Origin: Amycolatopsis endophytica
GTDB taxonomy: Bacteria; Actinomycetota; Actinomycetes; Mycobacteriales; Pseudonocardiaceae
Length of the DNA stretch: 64,000 bases
Reading direction: 5' to 3'
Assembly (NCBI RefSeq): GCF_013410405.1
Contig: NZ_JACCFK010000001.1
Coordinates: forward strand, 4,960,001-5,024,000
Shown here: positions 46,476-63,357 of the stretch, one piece after another
Layout: each line of letters starts with the position of its first letter
Numbering within the stretch: the stretch's first letter is position 1
Position numbers and translations under genes: made by a program
The notes under the pieces: generated by a model
The model's input: only the letters and a program-made list of their open reading frames with translations
Database searches by the model: none
Told to the model about the DNA's origin: nothing

Positions 46476-47399
46476 ATGACGCTGAACCAGCTGCGGGCGT
46501 TCGTGGCGGCTGAACGACTCGGCTCCTTCACGGCCGCCGCGTCCCAGTTGGACATCGCGCAGGCTTCGGTGTCGGAACTGATCCGGAGACTCGAGGAGGA
46601 GCTCGACGCGGTGCTGTTCCACCGTGGTGCCCGGCGGTTGTCCCTGACCGCCGCGGGGCAGGAACTGCTGCCCTACGCCCGTCGCACCGTCGACTCCGCC
46701 GACGAGGGAGTCCGCGCGGTCCATTCGCTCGGGTCGCTGGGCGGCGGCACGGCCACCTTCGGGGTGCTGCGCAACGCCGACTACTACCTGCTGGGCAACC
46801 TGGCCCACACGTTCCACCGGCGCTATCCGTCGGTGAAGGTCCGCCTGGTCGGGCTCAACTCGGCCGAGACGGCCGCGTCGATCGCCGCGGGGGAGATCGA
46901 AGCCGGGTTGATCGTTTTGCCGGTGGACGACGACACCCTGGCCATCACGCCGCTCATGCGCGACGAGGTCCTCTACGTCAGCGCCGATCCCGCCGTCACC
47001 GCGCGTCCGGTGACCATCGACAAGGTGGCGGCCGCGCGGCTCGTCCTCTACGACGCGCACTACGGCTGGGCCGATCCGACGAGGCGGCAGCTGGCCGCGC
47101 GTGCCCAGCTCGCCGGGGTCCACATCGAGCCCATCCTGGAGATCGAGCATGTGGAGGCCGCGTTGAAGCTGGTCGCCGCCGGGGTGGGGGACACCATCGC
47201 GAGTGCGGCCGTGGTCGGCAGCCGGGCCTTCCCGCCCGGGCTGCACACCGCTTCGTTCGACGAGCCGATGTTCGACACGATCGCGCTCGCCCGCAAGCGA
47301 GGGCGCCCGCTGTCCCGCGCAACCCGGGAGTTCGCCCGTCTCGCGGAAGACGCCATCAGCGAGATGCGGGGTGGCGCGACGAGGCCCGACCTGGAGTAA
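46476..47399 (+). CDS. LysR family transcriptional regulator
   Basis: 307 residues. N-terminal winged helix (MTLNQLRAFVAAERLGSFTA, then VSELIRRLEEELDAVLFHR), then the two-lobed substrate-binding domain. ATG at 46476 puts the HTH at the exact family position; an upstream GTG at 46446 would add ten charged residues. It is divergent from the MHS transporter gene and followed by the HisD-like and permease genes. The inducer is unknown. Confidence 0.92.
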   Translation: MTLNQLRAFVAAERLGSFTAAASQLDIAQASVSELIRRLEEELDAVLFHRGARRLSLTAAGQELLPYARRTVDSADEGVRAVHSLGSLGGGTATFGVLRNADYYLLGNLAHTFHRRYPSVKVRLVGLNSAETAASIAAGEIEAGLIVLPVDDDTLAITPLMRDEVLYVSADPAVTARPVTIDKVAAARLVLYDAHYGWADPTRRQLAARAQLAGVHIEPILEIEHVEAALKLVAAGVGDTIASAAVVGSRAFPPGLHTASFDEPMFDTIALARKRGRPLSRATREFARLAEDAISEMRGGATRPDLE

Positions 47400-47473
47400 T
47401 AGGGAAACCCGATGGGTGGCTCAGGAGGTAGTCACCTAGTCCTGTGGTCGAACTGTGCTTAACGTGTGCGGCC

Positions 47474-48829
47474 ATGCAGATCACTCCCGCGGAAGCAGAT
47501 CACCTCGGCCCGCTGACCTGGATCAAGAAGCCGGCCGTCGACGGGCCTCCCGCCCAGCGCCATCCCCAGGTCGTGGAGCGTGTTTCGGAGATCCTGGCCG
47601 ATGTCGAACGGCACGGCCTCGACGCCGTCCGCCGCTACGCCCGCGAGCTGGACGGCTGGACGGGTGAGCTGGAGATCAGCGCCGCCGAGCTGGCTCGCTC
47701 CGGGGACGCTCTCCCCGAGGACGTGCGGTCCTCCCTGGAGACCGGCTGTGACCGGACCCGCCGGTTCGCCCTTGCGCAGCGCGAGCACCTCGTCGACTTC
47801 GAGATCGAACTCGCTCCCTCGGTCGTCGGCGGACAGCGCTACGTTCCGGTCAACCGCGTCGGCGCCTACCTGCCCGCGGGCCGTTTCCCCTTGCTGGCCA
47901 GTGCGTTCATGACCGTGAACGTGGCGAAGGCCGCGGGCGTGCCGACGGTACTGGCCTGCACGCCGCCCACCGGTGAGCACGGCGCACACCCCGCGGTGCT
48001 CTACGGTGCCCACCTTTCCGGCGCGGACCGTGTCTTCGCGGTCGGTGGAGTCCAGGCGCTGGGAGCGCTCGCGTTCGGACTGCTGGGCGAGCAGCCGGTC
48101 GACATGCTCGTGGGCGCCGGCAACGCGTTCGTCACCGAAGCCAAGCGGCAGCTGTTCGGCCAGGTCGGGATCGACCTGCTCGCCGGTCCCTCGGAAGTGG
48201 CCGTGCTCGCGGACGAGACGGCTGATCCGGAGTGGGTGGCGGCCGATCTGCTCGGCCAGGCCGAGCACGGCCCCAACTCGCCGGCGGCTCTGATCACCAC
48301 GTCCGAGTTGCTCGGTCGTGAGGTCGCGGCCGCGATCGAACGGCAGCTGGCGGGCCTGAGCACCCGCGAGGTCGCGGGCCCCGCCTGGCGCGACTTCGGC
48401 TCGATCATCGTGGCGAGCGATCCCGCGCAGGCCGTGGCCGTGAGCGACGTCCTCGGCCCCGAGCACCTGGAAATCCAGACCGCGGACGACGACTACTATC
48501 TCAAGGAACTCACCAACTACGGTTCCCTGTTCCTGGGACGCTGGTCCACGGTGGCCTATTCGGACAAGGGCATCGCCGGGACCAACCACGTGCTGCCGAC
48601 CGGTAAGACAGCACGCTACAACGCCGGCTTGTCGGTGTCGCGATTCCTCAAGCCGCTGACCTACCAGCGCGCCCGGCGCGAGGGCACCGCGTACCTGGCG
48701 CCCGCGGTCGAGCGGATCTCCGCGTTCGAAGGACTGGCTGCCCACGAGGCGACCGCGACGATCCGCATCGAAGAGATCGGCAGGCACTCCGGGGCGTTCG
48801 AAGGCACGCCCGCGGTCGACCGTCACTGA
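47474..48829 (+). CDS. Histidinol-dehydrogenase-family dehydrogenase (HpsN-like)
   Basis: 451 residues. HisD fold: NRVGAYLPAGRFPLLASAFM, VGAGNAFVTEAKRQLFGQ, DLLAGPSEVAVLAD, LLGQAEHGPNSPAALIT (zinc Gln/His), LGPEHLEIQ (catalytic Glu-His), GTNHVLPTG and GLAAHEATATIR. No other his genes are near, and the RVGAYLPAGRFPL segment is closer to HisD paralogues such as sulfopropanediol dehydrogenase HpsN than to true HisD. It probably oxidises a primary alcohol twice to the acid. With a LysR and an amino acid permease, an amino alcohol or sulfonated diol is possible. Confidence 0.85.
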   Translation: MQITPAEADHLGPLTWIKKPAVDGPPAQRHPQVVERVSEILADVERHGLDAVRRYARELDGWTGELEISAAELARSGDALPEDVRSSLETGCDRTRRFALAQREHLVDFEIELAPSVVGGQRYVPVNRVGAYLPAGRFPLLASAFMTVNVAKAAGVPTVLACTPPTGEHGAHPAVLYGAHLSGADRVFAVGGVQALGALAFGLLGEQPVDMLVGAGNAFVTEAKRQLFGQVGIDLLAGPSEVAVLADETADPEWVAADLLGQAEHGPNSPAALITTSELLGREVAAAIERQLAGLSTREVAGPAWRDFGSIIVASDPAQAVAVSDVLGPEHLEIQTADDDYYLKELTNYGSLFLGRWSTVAYSDKGIAGTNHVLPTGKTARYNAGLSVSRFLKPLTYQRARREGTAYLAPAVERISAFEGLAAHEATATIRIEEIGRHSGAFEGTPAVDRH

Positions 48830-48868
48830 CCCCACGTCCCGATCGGTTCCCCACGTCGAGGAGCAACG

Positions 48869-50305
48869 ATGTCCCAGCCCCCGGAACGGGCGAACAGCGC
48901 CGGTAATACGCTGACGACCGGCCTGAAAGGCCGTCAGATCACCATGATCTCCATCGGTGGGGTCATCGGCGCCGGCCTGTTCGTCGGCTCGTCGGCCGCG
49001 ATCAGCGCGGCCGGCCCCGCTGTCCTGATCTCGTTCCTGCTCGCCGGCGCGCTGGTGGTTCTCGTGATGCGCATGCTCGGTGAAATGGCCGTGGCGAACC
49101 CCGACACGGGCTCGTTCTCGACCTACGCCGACCGGGCGCTGGGACGCTGGGCAGGTTTCTCGATCGGCTGGCTGTACTGGTGGTTCTACGTGCTGGTCAT
49201 CCCGATCGAGGCGATCGCGGCAGGCAAGATCCTCGGCGGCGCCCTCGGCCTGCCGACGTGGCTTCCGGCACTGGTGGTCATCCTGTTGCTCGCGGGCAGC
49301 AATCTGCTGGCGGTGCGCAACTACGGAGAATTCGAGTACTGGTTCGCCCTGCTCAAGGTGGTCGCCATCGTCGGATTCCTCATCATCGGAATCCTCGCAC
49401 TGACGGGGGTGCTGCCGGCGTCGGACTCCAGCGGGGTCTCCCACCTCTGGGATCGCGGCGGCTTCGCGCCACAGGGGGCCGTCGCGATCCTCACCGGACT
49501 GTTGACCGCCATGTTCGCCTTCCAGGGCAGCGAGATCGTCACGATCGCGGCCGCGGAGTCCAGCGAGCCGAAACGCAACATCAAGAAGGCCATCCGTGCG
49601 GTGGTGTGGCGGCTGAGCCTGTTCTACCTGGGCTCGGTGTTCTTCGTCGTCTGCCTGGTGCCCTGGGATTCGCCGGACCTGGAGCAGGGGTCCTACCAGG
49701 CGGCGCTCGAACGCGTCGGTATCCCCGGTGCCTCCTGGATCATGGACGTCGTGGTGGTGATCGCGGTGTGCAGCTGTCTCAACTCCGCCATCTACACCGC
49801 TTCCCGGATGGCCTACTCACTGGCCAAGCGCGGCGACGCACCTCATGTGCTCGGCCGGACCTCGGCCAACGGGACTCCGCGCAACGCGGTCGTCGCGTCC
49901 ACCGTCATCGGGATCGCGGCCGTCATCGCGAACTTCGCCGTGCCCGACGTGTTCACCTATCTGATCGCCTCCAGCGGGGCCATCGCGTTGATGATGTACC
50001 TGGTCATCGCCATCACGCAGTACGCCACGCGCAGGGGCTCCCGAGGCATCGCGCCCGAGGCGCCGATGTGGGCGTTCCCGTACCTGACGCTGCTCACGAT
50101 CGCGGGTATCGCGGTGGTCCTCGTGGTCATGGCCATCCTGCCCGGTCATCGACTCGAGTTGTGGCTCTCCCTGGGGCTGGCCCTCGTCCTGGTGGCGGCC
50201 GGGGTGCTTCTTCAGCGGGGAAGTGCCGGAACCAGGACCGCATCGTCACTTCGAACCGGCACGGACGCTGGTCCGGCGGCTCCGCCCGAGCGATCCCGTT
50301 CTTGA
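48869..50305 (+). CDS. APC superfamily amino acid permease
   Basis: 478 residues, about twelve membrane segments. Amino acid transporter family motifs: LKGRQITMISIGGVIGAGLFVGSSAAI in TM1, FQGSEIVTIAAAESSEPKRNIKKAIR in the central loop, and SRMAYSLAKRGDAP. Closest in pattern to GabP/AnsP-type permeases. GAGGAG precedes the ATG. It lies 39 bp after the HisD-like gene, so it probably imports that enzyme's substrate. Confidence 0.93.
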   Translation: MSQPPERANSAGNTLTTGLKGRQITMISIGGVIGAGLFVGSSAAISAAGPAVLISFLLAGALVVLVMRMLGEMAVANPDTGSFSTYADRALGRWAGFSIGWLYWWFYVLVIPIEAIAAGKILGGALGLPTWLPALVVILLLAGSNLLAVRNYGEFEYWFALLKVVAIVGFLIIGILALTGVLPASDSSGVSHLWDRGGFAPQGAVAILTGLLTAMFAFQGSEIVTIAAAESSEPKRNIKKAIRAVVWRLSLFYLGSVFFVVCLVPWDSPDLEQGSYQAALERVGIPGASWIMDVVVVIAVCSCLNSAIYTASRMAYSLAKRGDAPHVLGRTSANGTPRNAVVASTVIGIAAVIANFAVPDVFTYLIASSGAIALMMYLVIAITQYATRRGSRGIAPEAPMWAFPYLTLLTIAGIAVVLVVMAILPGHRLELWLSLGLALVLVAAGVLLQRGSAGTRTASSLRTGTDAGPAAPPERSRS

Positions 50306-50511: not shown

Positions 50512-51321
50512 TCAGCCCGCGACGCCGAGCTGGTTGTGCGCGCGCAGTTCCTGCGACAGGCCGCCGGCCAGACCGGACAGCTCCGCGGCCGTGGCGAGCA
50601 GGCTGGGTGCCAGTTCTTCCATGCGGGCGTTCGGGAACTGAAGGCTCGGTCCGGCGATGCTGACGACTCCCAGCGGCGCTCCGTTGTCCGGGTCGACCAG
50701 CGGCGCGGCCATCGCCGAAATGCCCTCTTCCACGCTGTCGTGCACGCGGGCCCAGCCGGTGGCCCTGGCCTCCTGGATCCGTTCCTGTACCTCGGTCAGT
50801 GTGCGGGGCGCGTTGTGGCCGGCGGGGTGCCGGTCATCCGGTTTCTGCCGGGCGACCAGGCGGAGCGCCTCGTCGTCGCCGAGCCGCGACAGCCAGGCGA
50901 GTCCGCTCGCCGACGAGCCGAACGGGATCTCCGAACCGTGGTCGGGGTCGTAGCGCAGACCACCCCGGGCGCCCTGCGATTTGGCGACCCACAGCAGTTG
51001 CTCGCCGTCGACCAGGCCCAGCCGCACCAGTTGCCCGGATTCGGCCGCGAGCCGGGCGAGCACCGGCACGGCCAGTTCGAAGATGGTGCTGCTGGCGAGG
51101 TGGCGCAGGCCGAGGCTGACGATCTTCAGCGTCAGCGCGTAGTTCCCGGTGGGCTCCAGCTGGCGCACGAAGCCCTCCTCGACGAGGGTGACGAGGATGC
51201 GGTGCGCGGCGCTCTTCGGCAGATCGACGCTCTCGGCGATCCGGGCCAGCGGCACCCCGTCGGGAGAGCCGATCAGGCACTGCAGAACCCCGAGACCGCG
51301 TGACAACGCTCCTGCCGCCAT
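50512..51321 (-). CDS. IclR family transcriptional regulator
   Basis: 269 residues from ATG at 51321, preceded by GGGAG; an upstream extension of 36 residues is possible but lacks family similarity. Winged helix about 5-65 (VPLARIAESVDLPKSAAHRIL), effector domain with LLWVAKSQG, IPFGSSASGLAWLS, HDSVEEGISAMAAPLVDPD and LGVVSIAGPSLQFP. It is divergent from the nine-gene MaoC-to-aldolase operon, with tandem repeats between, and is its likely regulator. Confidence 0.93.
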   Translation of the reverse strand: MAAGALSRGLGVLQCLIGSPDGVPLARIAESVDLPKSAAHRILVTLVEEGFVRQLEPTGNYALTLKIVSLGLRHLASSTIFELAVPVLARLAAESGQLVRLGLVDGEQLLWVAKSQGARGGLRYDPDHGSEIPFGSSASGLAWLSRLGDDEALRLVARQKPDDRHPAGHNAPRTLTEVQERIQEARATGWARVHDSVEEGISAMAAPLVDPDNGAPLGVVSIAGPSLQFPNARMEELAPSLLATAAELSGLAGGLSQELRAHNQLGVAG

Positions 51322-51415: not shown

Positions 51416-51445
51416 GAATGGTGTTCCACTTTCGAATGGTGTTCC
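51416..51445. promoter_or_regulatory. Tandem 12-bp repeats between IclR and the nine-gene operon
   Basis: GAATGGTGTTCC occurs twice exactly (51416-51427 and 51434-51445), 18 bp apart. The reverse complement GGAACACCATTC has the GGAAC..ATTC character of many IclR-family sites. Placed about 80-105 bp upstream of both divergent genes. Confidence 0.6.
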
Positions 51446-51521
51446 GATTGTGTAAGGTTCCGATGTCGACGGAGACCGCCCTCGACGACAGCGGTGTCGG
51501 GGCAGAGGAAGGAAGTCAGGT

Positions 51522-52028
51522 ATGGGCAAGGAGATCCCGCGTCAGGGGCTGCTGTACGAAGACCTGTCGGTCGGGCTCTCGTTCCGCAGTCCGGGTCGCA
51601 CGATCACCGACGCGGACGTGATCGGGTTCGCCGGGCTCACCGGGGATTATTCCGAGGTGCACACGAGCGACGTCTATGCGCGGGCGAGCCAGTTCGGGCG
51701 GCGTATCGCTCACGGGATGCTCGGGCTGGCCTACGCCCACGGTCTGATGTGGCCGCGCACCGAACTGCTGCGCGGCACCGCAATCGCGTTCCTCGGCATC
51801 AAGGACTGGCGGTTCGTCGCACCGATCTTCCTCGGGGACACGATCTTCGTGAACTACTCCGTCGCGGACATGCGGGATTCGAAGTCCAAACCGGACCAGG
51901 CCATCGTGACCTTCGACGTCGAGGTGGTGGACCAGGACGGCCGCGTGTGCCAGCGAGGGCAGAAGGTCGAGCTGCTGTCCAAGGTGCCGCTCGACGGCGT
52001 CACCGCGAGCGAGCGGACCGCCGGCTGA
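51522..52028 (+). CDS. MaoC family hydratase
   Basis: 168 residues, hot-dog fold. The hydratase-2 motif is seen as GLTGDYSEVHTSDVYARASQFGRRIAHG (Asp and His catalytic pair), followed by FLGIKDWRFVAPIFLGDTI. It adds water to, or removes it from, an enoyl-CoA or related ester. It is first gene of the nine-gene operon; its TGA overlaps the next ATG by one base. Confidence 0.9.
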   Translation: MGKEIPRQGLLYEDLSVGLSFRSPGRTITDADVIGFAGLTGDYSEVHTSDVYARASQFGRRIAHGMLGLAYAHGLMWPRTELLRGTAIAFLGIKDWRFVAPIFLGDTIFVNYSVADMRDSKSKPDQAIVTFDVEVVDQDGRVCQRGQKVELLSKVPLDGVTASERTAG

Positions 52029-52783
52029 TGGCGGACCGGTTCGCCGGACGGCGAGCACTCGTCACCGGCGCCGGCCGGGGGATCGGAGGCGCGATCGCCG
52101 ACCGGCTCGCCACCGAGGGCGCTGAAGTGGTCGTAGCCGACGTCGACCCGGCGCAGGCGCAGGCGGTCGTGAAAACACTGCAGGACAAGGGGGTACGAGC
52201 TCACGCGTGCACGCTGGACGTCGCCGTGCCGGCGTCGTTCGACGAGCTGGACCAGCCGCTGGACGTCGTCGTCGCGAACGCCGGCATCCAGACCTTCGCC
52301 CCCGCAGCGGAACTGGACGCCGCCGACTGGGACCGCGTGCTCGACATCAACGCGCGAGGTGCCCTGCTCACCCTGCAGCTGGCCGCGAGGCTCTTGCGCG
52401 ACGGGGGTTCCGTCGTCACCGTCTCCTCCATCCAGGCGCTGCTGCCCAACCCGTTCTCGCCCCACTACGCCGCGTCCAAGGCGGCCGTGCTGAGCCTGAC
52501 CAGGTCGTTCGCCGCCGCGCTCGCGCCGCGCGGTATCCGGGTCAACGCCGTGGCGCCGGGCCGGATCGACACCGCCATGTCGGACCTCGGCAGCACCGAA
52601 ACCGGGCGTCTGACCGGCCAGGATCCCGCCGAGACGCTGGCGCGGCGGATCGCGGCCAATCCGCTCGGCCGGATCGGCCGTCCCGATGAGGTCGCCGCCG
52701 CGGTCGCGTTCCTCGCCTCCGACGACGCGTCCTACATCACCGGCGAATGCGTCAACGTGTGCGGTGGGGACGTGATGGTGTGA
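52028..52783 (+). CDS. Short-chain dehydrogenase/reductase
   Basis: 251 residues. TGAGRGIGGAIADRL cofactor loop, VVANAGIQTF, Ser in TVSSIQALLP, HYAASKAAVLSLTRSF (Tyr-x3-Lys), and C-terminal GECVNVCGGDVMV. Probably oxidises the 3-hydroxy product of the MaoC hydratase or a related alcohol. Its stop overlaps the CoA-transferase GTG (GTGA). Confidence 0.93.
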   Translation: MADRFAGRRALVTGAGRGIGGAIADRLATEGAEVVVADVDPAQAQAVVKTLQDKGVRAHACTLDVAVPASFDELDQPLDVVVANAGIQTFAPAAELDAADWDRVLDINARGALLTLQLAARLLRDGGSVVTVSSIQALLPNPFSPHYAASKAAVLSLTRSFAAALAPRGIRVNAVAPGRIDTAMSDLGSTETGRLTGQDPAETLARRIAANPLGRIGRPDEVAAAVAFLASDDASYITGECVNVCGGDVMV

Positions 52784-54399
52784 TCCCGCTCGACGCCGCA
52801 CCCTCCGGACACCGACGCTCGGACCTGCACCTGACGCCCGCCGCGGCCGTGAACCTGATCGCCGATGGCGCGACCGTCGCGGTCGGCGGCACAGGATCCC
52901 TGCTGCAGGTGCCTGAAACGCTGCTCACCGCGCTCGAACAGCGGTGGGAGACCGACCACGGCCCGGCCGGGCTCGACGTCGTGCACGTGATGGGGCTGGG
53001 CGACCACGAAGGCCGCGGCATCGACCACATCGCGATTCCGGGCCTGGTGCGCCGGTTCATCGGATCCCACTTCGTGCTCTCGCCACGGCAACAGGCCCTC
53101 ATCGCGGGCAACGAGGTCGAGGCGATCGGCCTGCCCGCCGGCACGATCTCCCTGCTGTACCGGGAAATCGCCGCGCGCAGGCCGGGCCTGTTCACCGACA
53201 TCGGCCTCGGCACCTTCGTCGACCCGCGACAGCAGTGGGGCCGGATGAACAGCCGTACCCCCGAGGGGCTCAGCGAACTGGTCACCCTCCGCGGCCAGGA
53301 ATGGCTGTTCTACCCGGGCTTCGACCTCGACGTCGCGTTGCTGCGCGCGACCGAGGCGGACGTCGACGGCAACATCGGCATGGACGACGAAGCCGCCATC
53401 GGCGACAACCTCGCCCTCGCCCAGGCTGCCCACAACAGCGGTGGCCTCGTGATCGTCGAAGTCAAACGACTCGTCGACCGCGGGGAGATCCCGGCAGGCC
53501 GGGTGCGCATCCCGGGCCCCCTGGTCGACCACGTCGTGCTCACCGGCTACCCGAAACAGACACCGGTCACCGTCGACGACCCGAGGCGCACCGGAACCGT
53601 GCCCAACCAGCCGACGGAGGTCGAGCCGCTGCCGTTCGACGAGCGCAAGGTCGTCGCCCGCCGCGCCGCGGTCGAACTGTGTGAAGGGGACCTGGCCAAC
53701 CTCGGCGTCGGCATGGCCAACGGCATCAGCTACGTCGCTCTGGAGGAAGGCTTCCTCGACCGGTTCACCCTCACGGTCGAGCAGGGCATCTTCGGCGGCC
53801 TGCCGGGCGTGGGCCTGGACTCGGGCACCGCGATCAACCCCTCGGCCATCGTCGACATGCCCGGCCAGTTCGACCTCTACGATGGCGGCGGGCTCGACTT
53901 CGCGGGGCTCGCGTTCGCCGAGATCGACCGGCGCGGCAACGTCAACGTCGCGGCCGCCGGCGGCAAGCCGATCGGACCCGGCGGCTTCATCGACATCAGC
54001 CAGAAGGCACGCACGATCGTGTTCTGCGGAACCCTGCGTGGCGGCGGCCTCCAAGTCCGCCTTGACGACGGGAAGCTCGCCATCACCACCGACGGCCGCT
54101 ACCCGAAATTCGTTCCCGAGGTCTCCCACATCAGCTTCAATGCCGAACGGGCCTGCAGGCGCGGGCAACGCGTGCTGTACGTGACCGAACGAGCCGTGTT
54201 CCGGCTGACCGGCGAGGGTGTGGAGCTCGTCGAGATCGCGCCCGGAGTGGACCTGCACCGGGACGTGCTCGACCGGATGGGATTCGCGCCCGTCCTGCGA
54301 ACCGAGCCCCGGCTGATGGACCCTCGCCTGTTCCGGGCCGGCCCGGCCGGGCTCAAGCCCCGCCCGCGCCGTGACACAGAAAGGCCGCACCACTCATGA
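52780..54399 (+). CDS. Family I CoA-transferase with fused alpha and beta subunits
   Basis: 539 residues from GTG at 52780. The alpha half has AAVNLIADGATVAVGGTGSLL and HVMGLGDHEGRG; the beta half carries the catalytic glutamate in LTVEQGIFGGLPG, after NLGVGMANGISYV, and later GGGGLDF-like DGGGLDFAGLAFAEID and AARTIVFCG-type motifs (KARTIVFCGTLRGGGL). This is the acetate/acetoacetate (YdiF/SCOT) type forming a glutamyl-CoA intermediate. Having it next to a family III CoA-transferase suggests two different CoA exchange steps in one pathway. Confidence 0.9.
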   Translation: MIPLDAAPSGHRRSDLHLTPAAAVNLIADGATVAVGGTGSLLQVPETLLTALEQRWETDHGPAGLDVVHVMGLGDHEGRGIDHIAIPGLVRRFIGSHFVLSPRQQALIAGNEVEAIGLPAGTISLLYREIAARRPGLFTDIGLGTFVDPRQQWGRMNSRTPEGLSELVTLRGQEWLFYPGFDLDVALLRATEADVDGNIGMDDEAAIGDNLALAQAAHNSGGLVIVEVKRLVDRGEIPAGRVRIPGPLVDHVVLTGYPKQTPVTVDDPRRTGTVPNQPTEVEPLPFDERKVVARRAAVELCEGDLANLGVGMANGISYVALEEGFLDRFTLTVEQGIFGGLPGVGLDSGTAINPSAIVDMPGQFDLYDGGGLDFAGLAFAEIDRRGNVNVAAAGGKPIGPGGFIDISQKARTIVFCGTLRGGGLQVRLDDGKLAITTDGRYPKFVPEVSHISFNAERACRRGQRVLYVTERAVFRLTGEGVELVEIAPGVDLHRDVLDRMGFAPVLRTEPRLMDPRLFRAGPAGLKPRPRRDTERPHHS

Positions 54400-55652
54400 C
54401 CGACGCGTTCGACGGCATCCGCATCCTCGATTTCACCCAGCTCGAACAGGGCCCCTCGGCGACCCAGGTCCTCGCCGACTTCGGCGCCGAGGTGATCAAG
54501 GTGGAGCGGATCGACAAGGGTGAGATCGGCCGGTTCCAGCCGCCGTTCCTCGCCGGCGGCTACAGCCCGCACTGGTCGGCGACCAACCGGAACAAGAAGA
54601 GCATCAGCGTCGACGTCAAATCCACGGCCGGACGGGACCTGATCCACACTCTCGCCAAGGACGCCGACATCGTCGCGAGCAACTTCAGGCCCGGCGTGAT
54701 GGACCGCCTCGGGTTGGGCTGGGAACAGTTGTCGAAGATCAACCCCCGGATCATCGTCGCCTACGCCTCCGGGTACGGGCTGTCCGGTCCCTACACGCAC
54801 CGGCGCGGCCAGGACCTCGCCGCACAGGCGATCAGCGGGCTCATGGCACTGACCGGCAGCCAGGACACCGGACCGGTGCCGACCGGCACCTTCATGATCG
54901 ACTACCTGGCCTCGATGCAGTTCGCCCAGGGCATGATGATCGCGCTGGCCGCCCGCGAGAAGACCGGCCGCGGTCAGGTCGTCGACTCCAACCTGCTCAA
55001 CGCCGCCATCACCAGCCACCTGCAGGAAGGCACCACCTACCTCAACACCGGGCAGCGGTTCGACCGCCCTGGAGCTGGCATCGCGCACGCTCACAACACC
55101 GCCCTATACGGCTACTACGAAGCCGCCGACGGCCTGTGGTTCACCCTCATCGGCGAGTTCTACGTGGACCAGCAGTGGCAACGCGCCGCCCGGGCCTGCG
55201 ACCTCCCGCGGGAGGTCGCCGAGGACCCGCGCTTCCAGACCATCGAAGGCCTGCGCGAACATCCCCGGGAGACACACGGCCTGCTCGCCGACGCCATCGC
55301 GAAGTACCCGCGCGCGGAGATCATGGCCCGCTTCGAAGCCGAGGACGTGCTCGTCGCACCCGTCCACGACTACGACGCCGTGTTCGACGACCCGCAGGTC
55401 CGGCACAACGGACTGGTACTCGAATCCGAAGTGGACGGTGTCGGTCCGGTCAAGTTCGTCGGCATGCCCGTCTCCCTCTCCGACACGCCCGCCCGGCTGC
55501 GCCACGTCCCGCCCACCATCGGAGAGCACAACGACGACGTCCTCACCGCCGCCGGCCTGAGCCCGCAGCGGATCGCCGAACTCAAAGCCGCCGGTGTCGT
55601 CGGCTCCGAACGCGACCGCGAACGCGCCGGCGGCGCCGCCGCCTGGTCCTGA
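54396..55652 (+). CDS. CaiB/BaiF family III CoA-transferase
   Basis: 418 residues, ATG overlapping the previous stop. FDGIRILDFTQLEQGPSATQVLADFG, AEVIKVERIDKGEIG, KSISVDVKS, SNFRPGVMDRLGLGW, the catalytic aspartate in FMIDYLASMQFAQG, and C-terminal PPTIGEHNDDVL. It transfers CoA without a covalent glutamyl enzyme, through an aspartyl anhydride. It differs clearly from the CaiB paralogue at 15996-17270. Confidence 0.93.
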   Translation: MTDAFDGIRILDFTQLEQGPSATQVLADFGAEVIKVERIDKGEIGRFQPPFLAGGYSPHWSATNRNKKSISVDVKSTAGRDLIHTLAKDADIVASNFRPGVMDRLGLGWEQLSKINPRIIVAYASGYGLSGPYTHRRGQDLAAQAISGLMALTGSQDTGPVPTGTFMIDYLASMQFAQGMMIALAAREKTGRGQVVDSNLLNAAITSHLQEGTTYLNTGQRFDRPGAGIAHAHNTALYGYYEAADGLWFTLIGEFYVDQQWQRAARACDLPREVAEDPRFQTIEGLREHPRETHGLLADAIAKYPRAEIMARFEAEDVLVAPVHDYDAVFDDPQVRHNGLVLESEVDGVGPVKFVGMPVSLSDTPARLRHVPPTIGEHNDDVLTAAGLSPQRIAELKAAGVVGSERDRERAGGAAAWS

Positions 55653-55674
55653 ACGCCTCAAGGAGAACCACTTC

Positions 55675-56850
55675 GTGACCACTCTCGCCTCGACCGACCT
55701 CGTGCTGCCCACCGCCGGCGGCGGCACCGTCCGGCACGCCATGCACGAACCGGTCGACTACCCGCGCCATCCCGCACCGTTCACCTCGCGCACCGTGCTC
55801 GCGGCCGCGCACGTCGTCGCCGACGCCCGCGCCGACTACCAGCCCGGTCAGGCGCCGCCGATCGACTGGGAAGCTACGATCGCCTTCCGCAAGCACTTGT
55901 TCAGCTACGGCATCGGCATCGCGGAAGCCATGGACACCACCGAACGCGGCCCTGGCGGGCTGCAGTGGCCGCAGGCGAAGGAACTGATCCGGCTCGGTGT
56001 GGCCGCCGCCCGCGAGGCGGGCGCGGCCTGCGTCGCCGGCGCCGGTACCGACCAGATCACCTCGCCCCGTCCGGCTCTGTCCGAAATCGTCGACGCCTAC
56101 ACCGAACAGCTCGAGTTCGTGCAGGCGCAGGGCAGCGCCGCGGTGATCCGCGCCAGTCACGCGCTGGTTGCCGCCGCGAAGTCGGAGGACGACTACCTCG
56201 GGGTCTACCGGGACGTGCTCGCCAGGACCGACAAACCCGCGATCGTGCACTGGCTGGGCACCGGCTTCGACCCCACACTCGCCGGCTACTGGGGACACAC
56301 CGACGTGCGCCGCGCGATGGATGTCGTCATCGACATGGCGCGGGAGAACGCCGACCGCCTCGAAGGCATCAAGTTCAGCCTGCTCGACGAGGAACTGGAA
56401 AAGGAGTTCCGCCGCCGCCTGCCCACCGGGGTCAAGGTGTTCACTGGCGACGACTACGGCTACACGAACCTGCTGCTGGGCGACGGGGCGCACCACAGCC
56501 ACGGCCTGCTCGGCGTGCTCGACCCCCTCGCGCCCATCGCCTCGGCCGCGTTCACCGCCCTCGACGCCGGGGATGAGCAGGGCTTCGCCGACACCCTGAA
56601 CGCCTCGATCCCCATGGCGGTCAAGATGTTCGAGGCGCCCGCCGACCGGTACAAGGTCGGCACGGTCTTCGTCGCCTGGCTTTCCGGGCACCAGGACCAC
56701 TTCCGGATGGTCACCGGCCGGGAAGGCATGCGGTCACTGCAGCACCTGACCGACCTGTTCGTCCTCACCGACGCACTCGGCCTGTTCCCCGACCCCGAAC
56801 TCGCCGCGAACCGCATGCGGCTGTTGCTCGCCGTCGGAGGGGTGGAGTGA
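55675..56850 (+). CDS. DUF993 / dihydrodipicolinate-synthase-like protein
   Basis: 391 residues from GTG at 55675, supported by AGGAG nine bases upstream; this is the only gene of the operon with a gap (22 bp) and its own clear ribosome binding site. Barrel-like pattern: SYGIGIAEAMDTTERGPGGLQW, CVAGAGTDQI, VHWLGTGFDPTLAGYWG, LEGIKFSLLDEELEKEF, KVFTGDDYGYTNLLLGDGAHHSHGLLG. The KFSLLD lysine and GDDYGYTNLL resemble the Schiff-base lysine and following loop of DHDPS-type aldolases. Members are annotated as DUF993; I know of no assigned reaction. An aldol or retro-aldol step is inferred. Confidence 0.82.
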   Translation: MTTLASTDLVLPTAGGGTVRHAMHEPVDYPRHPAPFTSRTVLAAAHVVADARADYQPGQAPPIDWEATIAFRKHLFSYGIGIAEAMDTTERGPGGLQWPQAKELIRLGVAAAREAGAACVAGAGTDQITSPRPALSEIVDAYTEQLEFVQAQGSAAVIRASHALVAAAKSEDDYLGVYRDVLARTDKPAIVHWLGTGFDPTLAGYWGHTDVRRAMDVVIDMARENADRLEGIKFSLLDEELEKEFRRRLPTGVKVFTGDDYGYTNLLLGDGAHHSHGLLGVLDPLAPIASAAFTALDAGDEQGFADTLNASIPMAVKMFEAPADRYKVGTVFVAWLSGHQDHFRMVTGREGMRSLQHLTDLFVLTDALGLFPDPELAANRMRLLLAVGGVE

Positions 56851-58226
56851 CCACCGCGCCTCTGCCCCCGGTGCGCAGGGTGACCGCCGCCGATGTGCGC
56901 GCGGCACTCGCGGGCGCGCGCCGCGTCGTGTTCCTCGACGACGACCCCACCGGTACCCAGACCGTGCGCGACCTGCCGGTGCTGACGCGGTGGACAGTCG
57001 AGGACGTGCGCTGGGCCCTGCGCCAGGACACCGCCGGATTCTTCGTGCTCACCAACACCCGCAGCCTCGCCCCGGCCGACGCCGCGGCGCGCGACCGGGA
57101 AGTCGTGACAGCCTGTCTGCGAGCCGCCGAAGGAGAAGGCGCCGGGCTGGTCTTCGCCAGCCGCAGCGACTCCACCCTGCGCGGCCACTTCCCGCTGGAA
57201 ACCGACGTCATCGGCGAGGTGCTCGCCCAACACGGGGACACCGTGGACGCCGTCGTGCTCGCGCCCGCCTTCACCGACGCCGGACGGGTGACGCTCGGCG
57301 GGACGCACTACCTGCGCTCCGCCGACGGCCTGACCCCGGTCGCCGACACCGAGTTCGCGAAGGACGCCACGTTCGGCTTCACCTCCTCCCGTCTGGCCGA
57401 CTGGGTGACCGAGAAGAGCGCCGGCCGCATCCCCGCCGCGGATGTCACCGAACTGACCCTCGACGACATCCGGGGCGGCACCACGCAGAGCCTGTGCGAC
57501 CGGCTCAACGGCGTCGTCGTTCTCGACACCGCCGAAGACGACGACCTCCGCGCCGGGGTGCTGGCGATCCTGGCCGCTGAGGAAGCCGGGAAGACACTGG
57601 TCTATCGCGTCGGGCCGTCGTTCGTCCGGGCCCGCACCGGACAGGACGCCACACCACCGATCGAGGACGACACCCTCGCCACGCTCCTCCGGCCGGACGC
57701 GCACGGACTGGTCGTCGTCGGCTCGCACGTCGGGCTCACCAGCAGGCAACTCGCCAGGCTCGGCGAGCGCCGCCACTTCGCCCACGTCGAACTGGACGTC
57801 CCGGCCATCCTCGACGACGCCGAGGACCACATCCACGACGCCGTGGCGCGGGCGGTCGAGGCGCTCGGGAGCGACCTGGTCGTGCTGAGCACGTCCCGCA
57901 AGTTGGTCGCCGGCGCCGACGAGGCCGAAAGCCTGGACATCGCCCGGCGGGTCAGTGCCGCGCTCACCACGACCGCCCGCCGGATCGTCCAGGCGCGACG
58001 GCCCGCGTTCGTGGTCGCCAAGGGCGGGATCACCTCGTCCGACGTCGCCACCGTCTCGCTGGGCATCGACCGCGCGTGGGTCCGCGGGTCGATGCTGCCC
58101 GGGATCGTGTCGCTGTGGGAGCCGGTCTCCGGCCCCGCGCGCGGACTTCCCTACGTCGTGTTCGCCGGCAACGTCGGCGACGAGAACTCACTGGCGGATG
58201 TCATCGACCGGCTGGAGGCACTGTGA
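56847..58226 (+). CDS. Four-carbon acid sugar kinase family protein (DUF1537)
   Basis: 459 residues from GTG (GTGA overlap). N-terminal substrate domain with VVFLDDDPTGTQTVRDLPVLT and the FASRSDSTLRGHFPLETD motif; C-terminal nucleotide domain with VVVGSHVGLTSRQL, FVVAKGGITSSDVA and VVFAGNVGDENSLADVI. Family members phosphorylate 3-oxo-tetronates, D-erythronate/threonate-type acids or branched sugar acids. Its neighbour DenD-like dehydrogenase would make the 3-oxo acid substrate. No OtnC decarboxylase or OtnI isomerase is present, so the downstream fate must differ from the published tetronate pathways. Confidence 0.9.
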   Translation: MTTAPLPPVRRVTAADVRAALAGARRVVFLDDDPTGTQTVRDLPVLTRWTVEDVRWALRQDTAGFFVLTNTRSLAPADAAARDREVVTACLRAAEGEGAGLVFASRSDSTLRGHFPLETDVIGEVLAQHGDTVDAVVLAPAFTDAGRVTLGGTHYLRSADGLTPVADTEFAKDATFGFTSSRLADWVTEKSAGRIPAADVTELTLDDIRGGTTQSLCDRLNGVVVLDTAEDDDLRAGVLAILAAEEAGKTLVYRVGPSFVRARTGQDATPPIEDDTLATLLRPDAHGLVVVGSHVGLTSRQLARLGERRHFAHVELDVPAILDDAEDHIHDAVARAVEALGSDLVVLSTSRKLVAGADEAESLDIARRVSAALTTTARRIVQARRPAFVVAKGGITSSDVATVSLGIDRAWVRGSMLPGIVSLWEPVSGPARGLPYVVFAGNVGDENSLADVIDRLEAL

Positions 58227-59212
58227 CCACACGGATCGTGATCACTGGAGGTTCCGGATTCCTCGGCACGCTCCTCGCCCGGCGGCTGCTGGCCGGCCCC
58301 GTGGCGCTCGGCGGAACGGCTCCCGCCGAGGTCGGCGAGCTGGTCCTCGCCGACCTCGTCCCGCCCCAGGAAGACCTGTCCACCGACCCCCGGGTGCGGC
58401 CGCTCGTCGGCGAACTCGGCGACACCGTGCCGGAACTCGGCGAGGTGGACGCGATCTTCCACCTCGCCGGAGTGGTCAGCGGCGCCGCCGAAGCCGATTT
58501 CGACCTCGGCATGCGCACCAACCTCGACGGCACCCGTGCCCTGCTGGAGTACGCACGCGGCCTGCCGGCCCCACCGGTGCTGGTGTTCTCCAGCTCGCTC
58601 GCGGTGTTCGGCAACGACCCCGCGCTGCCGCCGCTGGACGTAGTGGACGACGATACGGTGCCGCGGCCGCAGTCCAGCTACGGAATCCAGAAGTTCATCG
58701 GGGAGCAGCTGGTGGCCGACTACACCCGCAAGGGTTTCGCGCGCGGCCGGTCGGTGCGGCTGATGACGGTGTCCGTCCGGCCCGGTAAACCGAACGCCGC
58801 CGCGTCGAGCTTCCTGTCCGGCATCATCCGCGAACCACTGGCAGGGGAGCGCGCGGTGTGCCCCGTCCCCGCCGACACGCCGATCGCGCTGTCCTCACCC
58901 CGGCGCACGCTCGAGGGCCTGCTGCGCGCCGCCGAAGTGGACGAGGCCACCTGGGGCAGCCGCACCGCGATGAACCTGCCCGCCCTCACCACCACACCCC
59001 GCGACATGGCCGCCGCGCTCGACCGCGTCGCCGGCGCCGGCACCAGCGACCTCATCGACTGGACCGACGACCCGCTCATCGGCGTGATCGTGCGCAGCTG
59101 GCCCGCCGTGTTCCGCACCCCCCGTGCGCACTCCCTCGGCCTGGAGCCCGAACAGTCCTTCGACGACATCGTCCGCGACTACCTCAATGACAACCCAGGA
59201 GCCCGATCATGA
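58223..59212 (+). CDS. NAD-dependent epimerase-family dehydrogenase, D-erythronate dehydrogenase (DenD)-like
   Basis: 329 residues from GTG (GTGA overlap). Rossmann loop RIVITGGSGFLGTLLA, IFHLAGVVSGAAEADFDLGMRTNLDGT, Ser in VFSSSLAVFG, and SSYGIQKFIGEQLVADYTRKGF (Tyr-x3-Lys). The tail VRPGKPNAAASSFLSGIIREPL is characteristic of DenD, which oxidises D-erythronate at C3. In this operon it probably oxidises a related hydroxy acid for the DUF1537 kinase. The exact substrate is not certain. Confidence 0.85.
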   Translation: MTTRIVITGGSGFLGTLLARRLLAGPVALGGTAPAEVGELVLADLVPPQEDLSTDPRVRPLVGELGDTVPELGEVDAIFHLAGVVSGAAEADFDLGMRTNLDGTRALLEYARGLPAPPVLVFSSSLAVFGNDPALPPLDVVDDDTVPRPQSSYGIQKFIGEQLVADYTRKGFARGRSVRLMTVSVRPGKPNAAASSFLSGIIREPLAGERAVCPVPADTPIALSSPRRTLEGLLRAAEVDEATWGSRTAMNLPALTTTPRDMAAALDRVAGAGTSDLIDWTDDPLIGVIVRSWPAVFRTPRAHSLGLEPEQSFDDIVRDYLNDNPGARS

Positions 59213-60555
59213 CCACCGGCAACGAAGCCGCCGCCCCTGCCGGAAGCGAGGGCCGCCGACCCGCCGGCGATTCCGGAACCGTCCGCACCCCGGCGCAAGT
59301 CCGTCGCGTCGCCCTTGCCGGCGGCATCGGCACCCTCATCGAGTACTACGACTACGCCCTCTACGGCTACGTCTCGACGATCATCGCGCCACTGTTCTTC
59401 CCCGGCAGCGACCCGGTCGCGTCCCTGCTGGCGGTGCTGGCCGTGTTCGCACTGTCCTATGTGGTCCGCCCGCTCGGCGGGATCTTCTTCGGCTGGGTCG
59501 GCGACCGCTACGGGCGCAGGCAGGCGCTGATGGTCACGGTGATCGGCATCGGTGTGGCCAACACCGCGATCGGCGTGCTGCCGACCTACGCCGTGGCCGG
59601 GGTACTGGCACCGGTCCTGCTCGTGCTCGTGCGCGTCGCCCAAGGGTTCTTCGCCGGCGGGGAGGTCGGCGGCGCCGCGACGGTGATCGCCGAAGCAGCG
59701 CCCCGGGGCAAGCGGGCCCGCTACGGCGCCTTCACCCCCATGGGCACCAACGGCGGCTTCGCGATCGCCTCGGCCGCCATCGGCATCGTCTCCGGCGTGC
59801 TGGCCACCCAGCAGCTCAACACCTGGGGCTGGCGCATCCCGTTCCTGATCGGTCTGCCGCTGACCGTCGTCTGCTACTTCGCCCGCCGCATGCTGCCCGA
59901 CATCGACCAGAAGGTCTCGCTCGGCAAGCACGGCTTCCCGCTCGTGACGGCGCTGAAGAGCTACCCCGGTTCGCTGCTGCAGGCCACCGCCCTCGGAGTC
60001 GGCGTCCAGGGCGCGGCCTACATCGGATCGACCTTCATCAGCATCTACCTGGTGTCCAACCTGCACTACCCCAAGTCGCCGGTGTACTGGATCACCGCCG
60101 GCGTAACTCTCTTCGCCGTGGCACTGATGCCCTTCACAGGGCGCCTCGCCGACCGCATCGGCACGTTCAAGGTCGCCACGATCGGGCTCGCCGGGTACGC
60201 GATCGTCACCTACCCCGCGTTCCTGCTGATGGACATCGGCAACCTCGGCCTGGCAGCGCTCGGCTACGTCGCGATCATGGTGAACATGGCGTTCCTGCAG
60301 GTCGCCTCGTTCACCCTGACGCCCCGCCTGTTCCCCGACGAGGTCCGCTACACCGGCACCGCGCTGGCCACCAACATCTCCGTCGTCATCGCCGGCGGCA
60401 CCGCGCCCTACGTGGCCACCTGGCTCGTCCAGCAGACCCACGACCTGCGCTCGCCCTACTACTTCGTCGCCACGACGTGCCTGATCGGCCTGATCGCGAT
60501 CGCCACCATGCGCAAGCGGCTCGCCTCCGACTTCGCCGCGGCGGGCGCGCGGTGA
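59209..60555 (+). CDS. MHS family MFS transporter
   Basis: 448 residues, ATG overlapping the previous stop. Signature IGTLIEYYDYALYGYV in TM1, loop VGDRYGRRQAL, GEVGGAATVIAEAAPRGKRARYG; about twelve membrane segments. It is embedded in the operon with overlaps on both sides, so it is the dedicated importer of the acid-sugar-like substrate. Confidence 0.92.
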   Translation: MTTGNEAAAPAGSEGRRPAGDSGTVRTPAQVRRVALAGGIGTLIEYYDYALYGYVSTIIAPLFFPGSDPVASLLAVLAVFALSYVVRPLGGIFFGWVGDRYGRRQALMVTVIGIGVANTAIGVLPTYAVAGVLAPVLLVLVRVAQGFFAGGEVGGAATVIAEAAPRGKRARYGAFTPMGTNGGFAIASAAIGIVSGVLATQQLNTWGWRIPFLIGLPLTVVCYFARRMLPDIDQKVSLGKHGFPLVTALKSYPGSLLQATALGVGVQGAAYIGSTFISIYLVSNLHYPKSPVYWITAGVTLFAVALMPFTGRLADRIGTFKVATIGLAGYAIVTYPAFLLMDIGNLGLAALGYVAIMVNMAFLQVASFTLTPRLFPDEVRYTGTALATNISVVIAGGTAPYVATWLVQQTHDLRSPYYFVATTCLIGLIAIATMRKRLASDFAAAGAR

Positions 60556-61460
60556 GAGCAGACCTCCGGGAGCTGGTGACGCGGCAGGTGAAGGCGGGAG
60601 CGGCGGTTCCCGCGTTCACCTGCTACGGCGCCGACACCGCGCTGGCCGTCGTCGCCGCGGCCGAGGCTCTGCGGCTTCCGGTCGTCCTTCTCGTCGCGCC
60701 CTCCAGCGCCACCGCCGCCTCCGGTCCGAAGCTGATCGCGACGTTGCGGCACATCGCCGACGACTCGGCCGTGCCGGTCTGCGTCCAGCTCGACCACGCC
60801 AAGGACGAGGCGGTGATCCGGAGAGGAATCGACGCCGGCGCCGACGCTGTGCTCGCCGACGGATCACACCTGCCGCCGGAGGACAACGCCGCCTTCGTCC
60901 GGCGGGTCCGGCAATTCGCCCGACCCGCCGGAGTGGTGGTGGAAGCGGAGCTCGGAAGCGTGCCCGGGGCCGAAGACCAAGCCGGCGCCCACAGCGCCGA
61001 CATGGCGGGGAAAACCGATCCGGCGACGGTCAGCCCGTTCCTGACGGCCTCGGGTGCCCAGCTGCTCGCCTGCGGCGTGGGCAACGTGCACGGCCTCTAC
61101 CGGGGCGAGCCCGCACTCGACTGGCGGCTGCTGGCCGCGATACGCGCGCAGGCGGGCGACGTGCCCCTGGTCCTGCACGGCGCCTCCGGACTGGCCGAGA
61201 CTGATCTGCGCGCCGCGGCTTCCGCGGGAGTCGGCAAAGTCAACGTCAACACCGAGCTGCGGACAGCCATGCTGGATGCGATCGAGCGAAACATCGCCGC
61301 GTGCCGGTCCGCGGGAGAGGACATGCTGACGCTGGCCGGTGCGACGGCCTCGGCCGCGGACGAGGTTGCTCGCCACCTTCTCTCCGTCATGGCCGATGTG
61401 TCCGCTCCTTCCGCAGGCATGGGTGTCGTCCGATCCCCGGAACCCGCACAGAGCGGGTGA
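60552..61460 (+). CDS. Class II (zinc) ketose-bisphosphate aldolase family protein
   Basis: 302 residues from GTG (GTGA overlap). Class II aldolase zinc and catalytic motifs: VCVQLDHAKDEAVIRRGIDAG, VVVEAELGSVPGAED, CGVGNVHGLYRGEP, LVLHGASGLAETDLRAAASAGVGKVNVNTELR. It cleaves a phosphorylated ketose or keto acid. Following a DUF1537 kinase, it probably splits the phosphorylated 3-oxo acid to a triose-phosphate-type product. A 6-bp stem around the stop codon (61442-61458) may end the operon. Confidence 0.9.
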   Translation: MRADLRELVTRQVKAGAAVPAFTCYGADTALAVVAAAEALRLPVVLLVAPSSATAASGPKLIATLRHIADDSAVPVCVQLDHAKDEAVIRRGIDAGADAVLADGSHLPPEDNAAFVRRVRQFARPAGVVVEAELGSVPGAEDQAGAHSADMAGKTDPATVSPFLTASGAQLLACGVGNVHGLYRGEPALDWRLLAAIRAQAGDVPLVLHGASGLAETDLRAAASAGVGKVNVNTELRTAMLDAIERNIAACRSAGEDMLTLAGATASAADEVARHLLSVMADVSAPSAGMGVVRSPEPAQSG

Positions 61461-62433: not shown

Positions 62434-63357
62434 TCAGACGATGGCGACCGGGTCGAGCATCGAGCCGGTCGCTCCCTCGATCTTGATGGGCAAGGCCACG
62501 AACAGGAACTCGTACGCGCGGTCGCGGGCGAGCTCTTCGAGGTAGATCGACTCGAAGAGGTAGATCGCGTTCTCGATGAGCAGCAGCGTGTGCACCGGCT
62601 GGGGGTTGGCCGGGTTGCCGGGATCGGGAGCCGGCTGCACTTCGAAGGTCTCGGTATCGCTCCCCGCGGCGACGACCCCGCTGTCGAGCAGCCATCGGGC
62701 CGCACTGATGTCCGGTCCGGCGGTCGCGTGGCGGGCCAGTGCTTCGCTGTCGGGCCATTTGCCGAGGTAGCCGGTGCGAACGAGTACGACATCGCCAGGC
62801 CGCACCTCGGTGTCCTGGTGCCGTGCGATCGCTTGGAGTTCTTCACCGGTGACCGGGTCCGACTTCGGCAAGGCCGCGACGCCCCGGTAGGCGGGCACGT
62901 CGAGCATGACGCCGCGGGTGATGAACGGGGGCAGTTTCGCGGCGTCGCCGTGGCGGGGACCGCCGTCGCCGAGGTGCTCGCGAGCGTTGCCGCCGCCGTA
63001 CCAGTGGTCGTCCTCGCCGATGGTCATGTGCGCCAGCGCGTCCACATGCGCCCCGCAGTGCGAGGTGGCGCTGACCAGTTCGGCCATGTAGCCGAGGTTG
63101 ACGTCGTTGCGCGGACCCCACGGCTGGCGGCCTTCGGCGCGCAGGCCGGCCGGAGTGCGCGCCATGTGGACCTGAAACGGCGGGTGGGATCCGAACAGCG
63201 GCATACCAGTGAACCGGGGCAGGGACAGCGAGTAGACGTCGCCGCGGTCGGGTAACGCCAGCGCGGCCAGGATCTCCTGCGGCTTCCGGAAGGCCGCGGG
63301 CCCGCGCTCGGGGTCGATGCCGGCCGGTTTGCTCTGGCGGTCGGTGTTGACGCTCAT
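62434..63357 (-). CDS. Cyclase family protein (kynurenine formamidase-like metal hydrolase)
   Basis: 307 residues. The PF04199 metal motif HxGTHxD...H appears as TSHCGAHVDALAH, with Ala for Thr, near residue 100. Further blocks: DVYSLSLPRFTGMPLF, GVMLDVPAY, RPGDVVLVRTGYLGKW, GPDISAARWLLDSGVVAAGSDTETFE, HTLLLIENAIYLFE, EFLFVALPIKIEGATGSMLDPVAIV. Such enzymes hydrolyse N-formylkynurenine, isatin or similar amides and cyclic compounds. It is divergent from the beta-keto acid cleavage enzyme gene, with a decayed segment between. Confidence 0.9.
   Translation of the reverse strand: MSVNTDRQSKPAGIDPERGPAAFRKPQEILAALALPDRGDVYSLSLPRFTGMPLFGSHPPFQVHMARTPAGLRAEGRQPWGPRNDVNLGYMAELVSATSHCGAHVDALAHMTIGEDDHWYGGGNAREHLGDGGPRHGDAAKLPPFITRGVMLDVPAYRGVAALPKSDPVTGEELQAIARHQDTEVRPGDVVLVRTGYLGKWPDSEALARHATAGPDISAARWLLDSGVVAAGSDTETFEVQPAPDPGNPANPQPVHTLLLIENAIYLFESIYLEELARDRAYEFLFVALPIKIEGATGSMLDPVAIV

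Follow-up and report, generated by a model that had tools for sequence, protein, structure and literature searches.

An actinobacterial operon joining CoA-thioester enzymes and a DUF993 protein to a putative D-erythronate module

Why should a single bacterial operon carry both a set of coenzyme A (CoA) enzymes and the kinase, dehydrogenase and aldolase of an acid-sugar pathway? The question is raised by a 64,000-nucleotide stretch of the Amycolatopsis endophytica genome (contig NZ_JACCFK010000001.1, positions 4,960,001 to 5,024,000; hereafter the window), in which nine genes occupy the plus strand from 51522 to 61460. They encode a MaoC-type hydratase, a short-chain dehydrogenase/reductase (SDR), a family I and a family III CoA-transferase (CoAT1 and CoAT3), a DUF993 protein, a DUF1537 kinase, the dehydrogenase DenD, an MHS-type symporter and an F_bP_aldolase-family protein (Table 1). 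An earlier note on this stretch had described nine coupled same-strand genes, overlapping at all junctions but one, as one operon joining CoA-thioester enzymes with a DUF1537 acid-sugar module, and this description is borne out by what follows. The genes form a real, conserved and single operon, which, on a reading we hold tentatively and at a little under an even chance, would be controlled by one IclR-family regulator and would degrade, in two connected stages, a polyhydroxylated organic acid taken up from outside.

Pfam supports all nine family names. Seven of the eight junctions overlap, that of MaoC and SDR by 1 bp and the six others by 4 bp, the sole exception being a 22-bp gap between CoAT3 and DUF993; start codons were picked at the overlaps, with the SDR start taken as the ATG at 52028. 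The inventory of nine genes stands, and to it must be added a divergent IclR-family gene, the probable regulator, which the earlier note had left uncounted. Its start is probably the ATG at 51321, its open reading frame reaching back to a GTG at 51429, within a conserved tandem operator-like site, and an IclR orthologue is likewise divergent from the operon in L066, L067, L068, L069, L070, L071 and L074. The operator-like pattern, GAA-N5-TTCC, was written from the sequences that separate IclR from the operon in the window and at seven loci. It has one match in the window and none in 100 shuffles, a single match in the 7.2-Mb genome, and matches at seven operon loci among 250 loci (ten locus identifiers, three of them repeats). 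All seven named operon loci that retain IclR keep the site, and the pattern is without a match in L010, where IclR is truncated, and in L072, where no IclR was seen. Since the pattern was derived from these same loci, only its genome-wide uniqueness counts as independent; one candidate operator site in the genome and at seven related loci nonetheless supports a single IclR-controlled unit. The regulon may amount to a single operon in soil actinobacteria, and its induction could reveal the substrate. A promoter and terminator scan, uninformative for an actinobacterium, gave one promoter-like site, outside the operon at 63685, and six terminator-like sites where chance alone would give 3.9 +/- 2.0.

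The earlier note had proposed looking for the same gene order in other genomes. A contig scan for DUF993 confirmed 82 relatives, of which 80 were kept, eight at 75–88% identity and 72 at 50% or less; the scan works by peptide patterns, so there are at least eight such close loci. In one of them, Amycolatopsis acidicola (L066), all nine genes and the divergent IclR recur in order, and most of the genes recur at the seven others; the arrangement is therefore not a chance one. Streptomyces sulfonofaciens has the nine families in order, with an aldolase at only 41% and an extra isomerase-like gene, and Mycolicibacterium P1-18 and Rhodococcoides kyotonense have eight genes in order, the latter with a 51% aldolase homologue situated beyond IclR. 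Two Micromonospora loci are without MHS and aldolase and carry instead an ABC system with an NMT1-type binding protein, together with an isomerase-like gene seen by match in L068 and, in L070, judged by eye to be a fragment. A Microbacteriaceae metagenome-assembled genome has similar ABC genes and a second SDR at the place of DenD, and Saccharopolyspora soli keeps IclR, MaoC, SDR, CoAT3, DUF993 and MHS, with CoAT1 reduced to residues 2–75. Over the eight loci MaoC, SDR, CoAT3 and DUF993 are present in all, intact CoAT1 and DUF1537 in seven each, DenD in six and MHS in five, the aldolase being the least conserved member. The presence of the operon in several orders at 75–88% identity suggests horizontal transfer. 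Nearer to the window, a DUF1537 match (E 1e-40 or better) occurs in seven of 61 genomes (its own and 60 relatives) and in five of the 19 from the same genus, among which the full operon is found in the window genome and A. acidicola. A third member of the genus (G003) has no MaoC match, an SDR match only from residue 92 and an IclR match only over residues 190–305, as if a deletion had run from IclR across MaoC into the beginning of SDR, and it has a second aldolase copy, at 74%, located away from the operon (L010 4386-5175 and L197 7742-8509).

The CoA half of the operon belongs to a recurrent association of DUF993 with CoA enzymes, for which no description was found in a literature search thin on subscription journals. 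This was seen in the neighbourhoods, 8 kb on each side, of DUF993 at 80 species loci and 15 plasmid loci, set against 40 control regions placed at fixed points in 20 actinobacterial genomes; some of the query proteins were drawn from these very clusters, and the control regions represent one phylum, the DUF993 loci several. Genes were counted by tblastn (E 1e-12, coverage of at least half), because the gene caller, trained on the GC-rich window, missed DUF993 itself in 18 of the 80 loci. A CoA-transferase lies near DUF993 in 27 of the 95 loci as against none of the 40 control regions. A hydratase (MaoC or crotonase) is found in 24/27 of the loci with a CoA-transferase vs 1/65 of those without (92 rows, Fisher 9e-18); over the same rows, the CoA-transferase shows no such link to acyl-CoA dehydrogenase or to glycerate kinase (Fisher 0.69 and 0.12). 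On a DUF993 tree of 93 rows, with three dropped, the CoA-transferase label requires nine changes, at least six of them forced by well-supported branches; two long branches, L127 and L194, of which L194 carries the label, may be falsely joined. Annotation adds a Rhodococcus USK13 cluster of glycerate kinase, SDR, acyl-CoA dehydrogenase, CoA-transferase, DUF993 and isomerase, further DUF993/CoA clusters in Janthinobacterium, Sagittula, Microvirga and Caballeronia, and a Rhizobium NLR16a stretch with acyl-CoA dehydrogenase, SDR and electron-transfer flavoprotein (ETF) genes and no CoA-transferase.

The usual setting of DUF993 is a different one, a triad of Gfo/Idh/MocA oxidoreductase, DUF993 and AP_endonuc_2-type isomerase, often with LacI. 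A triad-like Gfo/Idh gene accompanies 49 of the 68 DUF993 loci without a CoA-transferase as against none of the 27 with one; distant Gfo/Idh genes fell below the threshold, so the pattern holds for the Gfo/Idh partner proper to the triad and no further. That partner is found at none of the eight operon-type loci, nor among the nine window genes. The triad is widespread in the phylum (L047-L064). On plasmid pAO1 (L198 3759-10376) the genes in line with DUF993 encode a GMC oxidoreductase, an aldehyde dehydrogenase, a Gfo/Idh protein and a glycerate kinase, and a search on pAO1 and glycerate kinase gave no paper that looked relevant by title. On alphaproteobacterial plasmids (L204, L205) the triads stand with an enolase-superfamily gene and a tripartite tricarboxylate transporter, which may indicate an acid substrate. 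No described function was found for the triad or for the solved family structure, 4dnh, and no publication naming DUF993 or that structure, in a search that left subscription journals mostly outside; in the part of the DUF993 literature covered, SMc04132 appears in one paper, in a passage that belongs to a table listing PhaR-related changes in proteins.

The fold of DUF993 is the TIM barrel of the dihydrodipicolinate synthase (DHDPS)/aldolase type. Its K233, invariant in 17/17 sequences, falls opposite DapA K161 in an hhalign alignment (probability 60, E 8.5e-5) and by position is a putative Schiff-base-type lysine. The place of the catalytic tyrosine of DapA and NanA is taken by an invariant histidine, H192, which aligns with DapA Y133, so that the chemistry may differ. 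As for its companions, MaoC has no NCBIfam equivalog above cut-off, and the nearest models to the SDR are those of glucose-1-dehydrogenase/FabG, all below cut-off. The closest solved structure to CoAT1 is YdiF 2ahu (E 9.5e-128), and those to CoAT3 are succinate-hydroxymethylglutarate and formyl-CoA transferases; CoAT1 E334-Q335-G336 (8/8 sequences) and CoAT3 D169 (7/7) are invariant and presumably have the catalytic roles familiar from these families. An itaconate/mesaconate-type pathway was considered and rejected: against RipB/Ich the MaoC protein scores only 72.5 bits where the cut-off is 340, CoAT3 scores 192.4 of the 700 bits required for succinyl-CoA:mesaconate CoA-transferase, and no citramalyl-CoA lyase family is present among the nine.

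On the acid-sugar side, DenD is the only one of the nine proteins above an NCBIfam equivalog cut-off, and it exceeds the D-erythronate dehydrogenase cut-off in all five loci tested. The kinase barely matches E. coli YgbK (E 0.011) and has no match to the OtnK model NF043035 (cut-off 350) at E 1e-3; it stands at 51% to a kinase of Arthrobacter StoSoilB13 that has an F_bP_aldolase gene nearby. The window aldolase stands at 53% to the homologue in that strain, and its H82, H180 and H209, invariant in 8/8, are what we take to be zinc ligands. The earlier label of class II aldolase is to be understood as the family PF01116 (fructose-bisphosphate aldolase) and not Aldolase_II/OtnC; Aldolase_II (OtnC) and OtnI domains are absent from all nine proteins at E 1e-3. 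When the best four candidates per genome were scored, kinase matches (E 1e-60 or better) occurred in 16 of 396 genomes of the phylum, the window's own included. Of 15 non-window loci read with 1.5-kb flanks, 11 have a beta-hydroxyacid dehydrogenase next to the related kinase (by eye, with a Pfam check for L146) and three a PF01116 aldolase (L146, L157 and L159, at 56, 50 and 43% to that of the window), while one, L149, yielded no gene call. On the Arthrobacter plasmid our gene calls give the order kinase, LtnD-like dehydrogenase (NF043037, 245 bits, below the cut-off of 350), membrane protein and aldolase, and kinase and aldolase are paired on plasmids of Rhodococcus antarcticus and Deinococcus taeanensis. 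Elsewhere in the eight genomes searched, E. coli YgbL finds only 27–35% matches, which is uninformative as to a 3-OtnC; in the window's own genome there is only a 35% YgbL-like match at E 1e-10, outside the operon. At a locus of its own in the same genome, a DUF1537 kinase gene stands next to PdxA and a DeoR-like gene (G000:C2, L016 7736-9932), a module presumably of the D-threonate type by gene content.

The absence of OtnC and OtnI had been taken as the sign of an unusual acid-sugar pathway. This argument for novelty must be given up because a bacterial route without them is in print: the relevant part of PMC12540250 describes three steps in which LtnD makes 2-oxo-L-threonate, and 2-OtnK, a DUF1537 protein, and 2-OtnC, which carries an F_bP_aldolase domain, give dihydroxyacetone phosphate (DHAP), with no need of OtnI; a kinase, dehydrogenase and aldolase set of this kind lies together on the Arthrobacter plasmid. 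The same source cites Guo et al. 2024 for an alternative L-threonate / D-erythronate pathway. By analogy, the DenD, DUF1537 and aldolase genes are best read as resembling a three-step D-erythronate route. The statement that no described system has the whole gene set still holds, for no description of all nine genes was found in a literature search that was thin on subscription journals; nor, with such journals mostly outside the search, was any publication on operons of erythronate genes with a CoA-transferase, or of DUF1537 together with both a CoA-transferase and an aldolase.

The simplest chain joining the two arms would run as follows. The MHS symporter would import the starting acid; in the first stage CoAT3 and CoAT1 would attach and remove CoA, MaoC would hydrate or dehydrate, the SDR would oxidise the acyl-CoA to a 3-oxo intermediate, and DUF993, as a class-I-aldolase-like TIM barrel, would cleave a C–C bond, giving a four-carbon sugar acid, most simply D-erythronate, and a short acid or acyl-CoA. 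In the second stage DenD would oxidise D-erythronate to 2-oxo-tetronate, the DUF1537 kinase would phosphorylate it, and the F_bP_aldolase-family enzyme would release DHAP and, by carbon count, CO2. The sequences show the set, order and conservation of the genes, their families, a single operator-like site, the DUF993 fold, invariant candidate catalytic residues and the repeated pairing of DUF993 with CoA-transferases; we infer every substrate, what DUF993 catalyses and which arm feeds the other. A broader proposal, which has rather less than an even chance of holding, is that DUF993 is the C–C lyase of a widespread CoA-dependent, beta-oxidation-like sugar-acid route, assembled at least twice across Actinomycetota, Chloroflexota and Pseudomonadota, whose product is a four-carbon acid passed to the D-erythronate module here and a three-carbon acid passed to glycerate kinase in some relatives. 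DUF1537 lies near DUF993 at seven of the eight operon-type loci and at none of the 87 others, and glycerate kinase beside it at nine of those 87 and none of the eight; such a split would fit a C3-versus-C4 product, on small numbers. Glycerate kinase occurs in five of the 19 other loci with DUF993 and a CoA-transferase, which makes a short sugar acid a plausible product there, and somewhere in all eight genomes searched, so that a gap at the operon does not mean that the genome lacks it.

Several observations weigh against the two-stage pathway. The aldolase lies downstream in two of the eight loci and not in the other six; for the five of those genomes other than R. kyotonense, a search at E 1e-20 gave none or only 31–36% homologues. 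Two further genomes of the genus (G006 and G011) have just DUF1537-DenD within about 9 kb, and S. sulfonofaciens has a second, stand-alone DUF1537-DenD pair (L195 6622-9086) beside its operon. The S. soli locus is without DUF1537, DenD and aldolase, so that the CoA arm may work without the second stage, or the locus may be decaying. Across the DUF993 family, independent pairs agree with the hydratase link in 5.4 of 6 cases on average (median p 0.0625, borderline); for Gfo/Idh they go the other way in 2.7 of 6 (median p 0.25), so that the CoA-transferase/Gfo-Idh exclusion is not significant by this measure and may reflect shared ancestry. Distant Gfo/Idh genes do occur in CoA-transferase clusters, at 27% in L117 and L129 and by annotation in L207 and L209, and the count of glycerate kinase beside DUF993 is low. 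The arms may connect in either direction, and in the pertinent passages of PMC12540250 the three-step route is set out for L-threonate only, while the paper it cites names D-erythronate in its title. The earlier note's proposal of a second arm passing by way of CoA esters gains from the recurrent DUF993–CoA-transferase clusters; that arm might come before or after the acid-sugar arm, and the halves are apart at some loci.

That separation invites the reading of two independent modules, a DUF993/CoA pathway for one acid and a three-step D-erythronate route for another, which share an inducer or a source such as root exudate or cell-wall debris and no common intermediate. DUF1537-DenD alone at three loci, the CoA half without kinase or DenD in S. 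soli, and the lack of DUF1537 and DenD nearby in all 19 other DUF993/CoA-transferase loci speak for it; the placing of DUF1537 downstream of DUF993 in seven of the eight related operons (directly in six), across six families, the 4-bp overlaps in the window and the single operator-like site speak against it, and we consider it unlikely, if far from negligible. Another reading, which starts from the linear model of the earlier note, keeps one pathway and reverses the order: import, oxidation by DenD, phosphorylation and aldolase cleavage, after which the CoA genes process the fragment that is not DHAP. Many PF01116 aldolases split ketose bisphosphates into DHAP and an aldehyde, and such an aldehyde could be oxidised further by the operon's SDR and CoA enzymes. 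However, 2-OtnC beside a kinase of this kind gives DHAP from a C4 acid in the route described in PMC12540250, which by carbon count would leave only CO2; moreover, the 19 other DUF993/CoA loci are without the kinase or such an aldolase, and the aldolase is the least conserved gene of the set; we consider this order improbable. As for DUF993 itself, it could be, within the DHDPS superfamily, a dehydratase or an enzyme of the decarboxylase type whose substrate is an acid derived from a sugar, used either ahead of CoA transfer or following it, a role compatible with either linkage of the arms. The superfamily includes dehydratases as well as aldolases, and the invariant histidine in place of the DapA tyrosine points the same way, but the fold and the lysine alone do not discriminate; we regard this role as rather doubtful. 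The two-stage pathway, if true, would add a CoA-thioester route to sugar-acid catabolism and explain the fusion of a tetronate module to acyl-CoA enzymes, and the pairing of DUF993 with CoA-transferases and hydratases, changing repeatedly on its tree, gives the family a testable role.

Around the operon lie, upstream at 44973-50305, a separate cluster of an MHS transporter gene (-), a LysR-like regulator (+; labelled by eye), a HisD-family dehydrogenase that scores 435 bits against TIGR00069, and a GABA-permease-like transporter, and, convergent with the operon end, a putative cyclase family protein (PF04199) at 62434-63357 (-).

Table 1. Genes and the operator-like site of the operon, in window coordinates
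Feature	Coordinates	Strand	Support
IclR-family regulator, divergent from operon	50512..51321	-	PF01614 + PF09339
Conserved tandem GAA-N5-TTCC operator-like site	51416..51446	+	IclR/MaoC intergenic region
MaoC-type hydratase	51522..52028	+	PF01575, 73 bits
Classical SDR dehydrogenase	52028..52783	+	PF13561, 194 bits
CoAT1, family I two-domain (YdiF/FadX-type) CoA-transferase	52780..54399	+	PF01144
CoAT3, family III CoA-transferase	54396..55652	+	PF02515, 363 bits
DUF993, DHDPS/N-acetylneuraminate-lyase fold	55675..56850	+	
DUF1537 kinase, probably 2-OtnK-like	56847..58226	+	PF07005 + PF17042
DenD, D-erythronate dehydrogenase	58223..59212	+	NF043036, 358.2 bits (cut-off 325)
MHS-type metabolite:H+ symporter	59209..60555	+	PF07690; TIGR00883, 325 bits (below cut-off 443)
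F_bP_aldolase-family protein, probably 2-OtnC-like	60552..61460	+	PF01116, 226 bits

Among known systems, the three-step tetronate pathway shares with the window operon a DUF1537 kinase, an F_bP_aldolase-family enzyme, a tetronate dehydrogenase and the lack of OtnI. It differs in that its dehydrogenase is LtnD and not DenD, in that the window module is fused to MaoC, SDR, two CoA-transferases, DUF993 and MHS, and in that six of the eight related operons do without a downstream aldolase gene. The four-step ygbJKLM pathway of E. coli (LtnD, 3-OtnK, 3-OtnC, OtnI) likewise pairs a DUF1537 kinase with a sugar-acid dehydrogenase, but the window kinase bears little likeness to YgbK, and the Aldolase_II decarboxylase and OtnI are missing from the operon. 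With the DUF993 triad the operon has DUF993 in common and, in some relatives, an isomerase-like gene after IclR (L067, PF01261; L068, 44% to that of L067; the L070 fragment), whereas the window DUF993 falls in a separate clade (nine rows, support 100/100) and stands next to IclR. For the CoA-linked chain the closest precedent, by analogy, is provided by the deoxyribonate pathways of Price et al. 2019 (PMC6365646), whose passages on them propose that a CoA-linked or beta-keto cleavage turns deoxyribonate into glyceryl-CoA, with glycerate kinase acting next. Those pathways use a beta-keto acid cleavage enzyme or a thiolase, and the same passages mention neither DUF993 nor DUF1537; what they share with the chain proposed here is the oxidation of a sugar acid to a keto acid, a CoA-linked cleavage and a short sugar acid as product.

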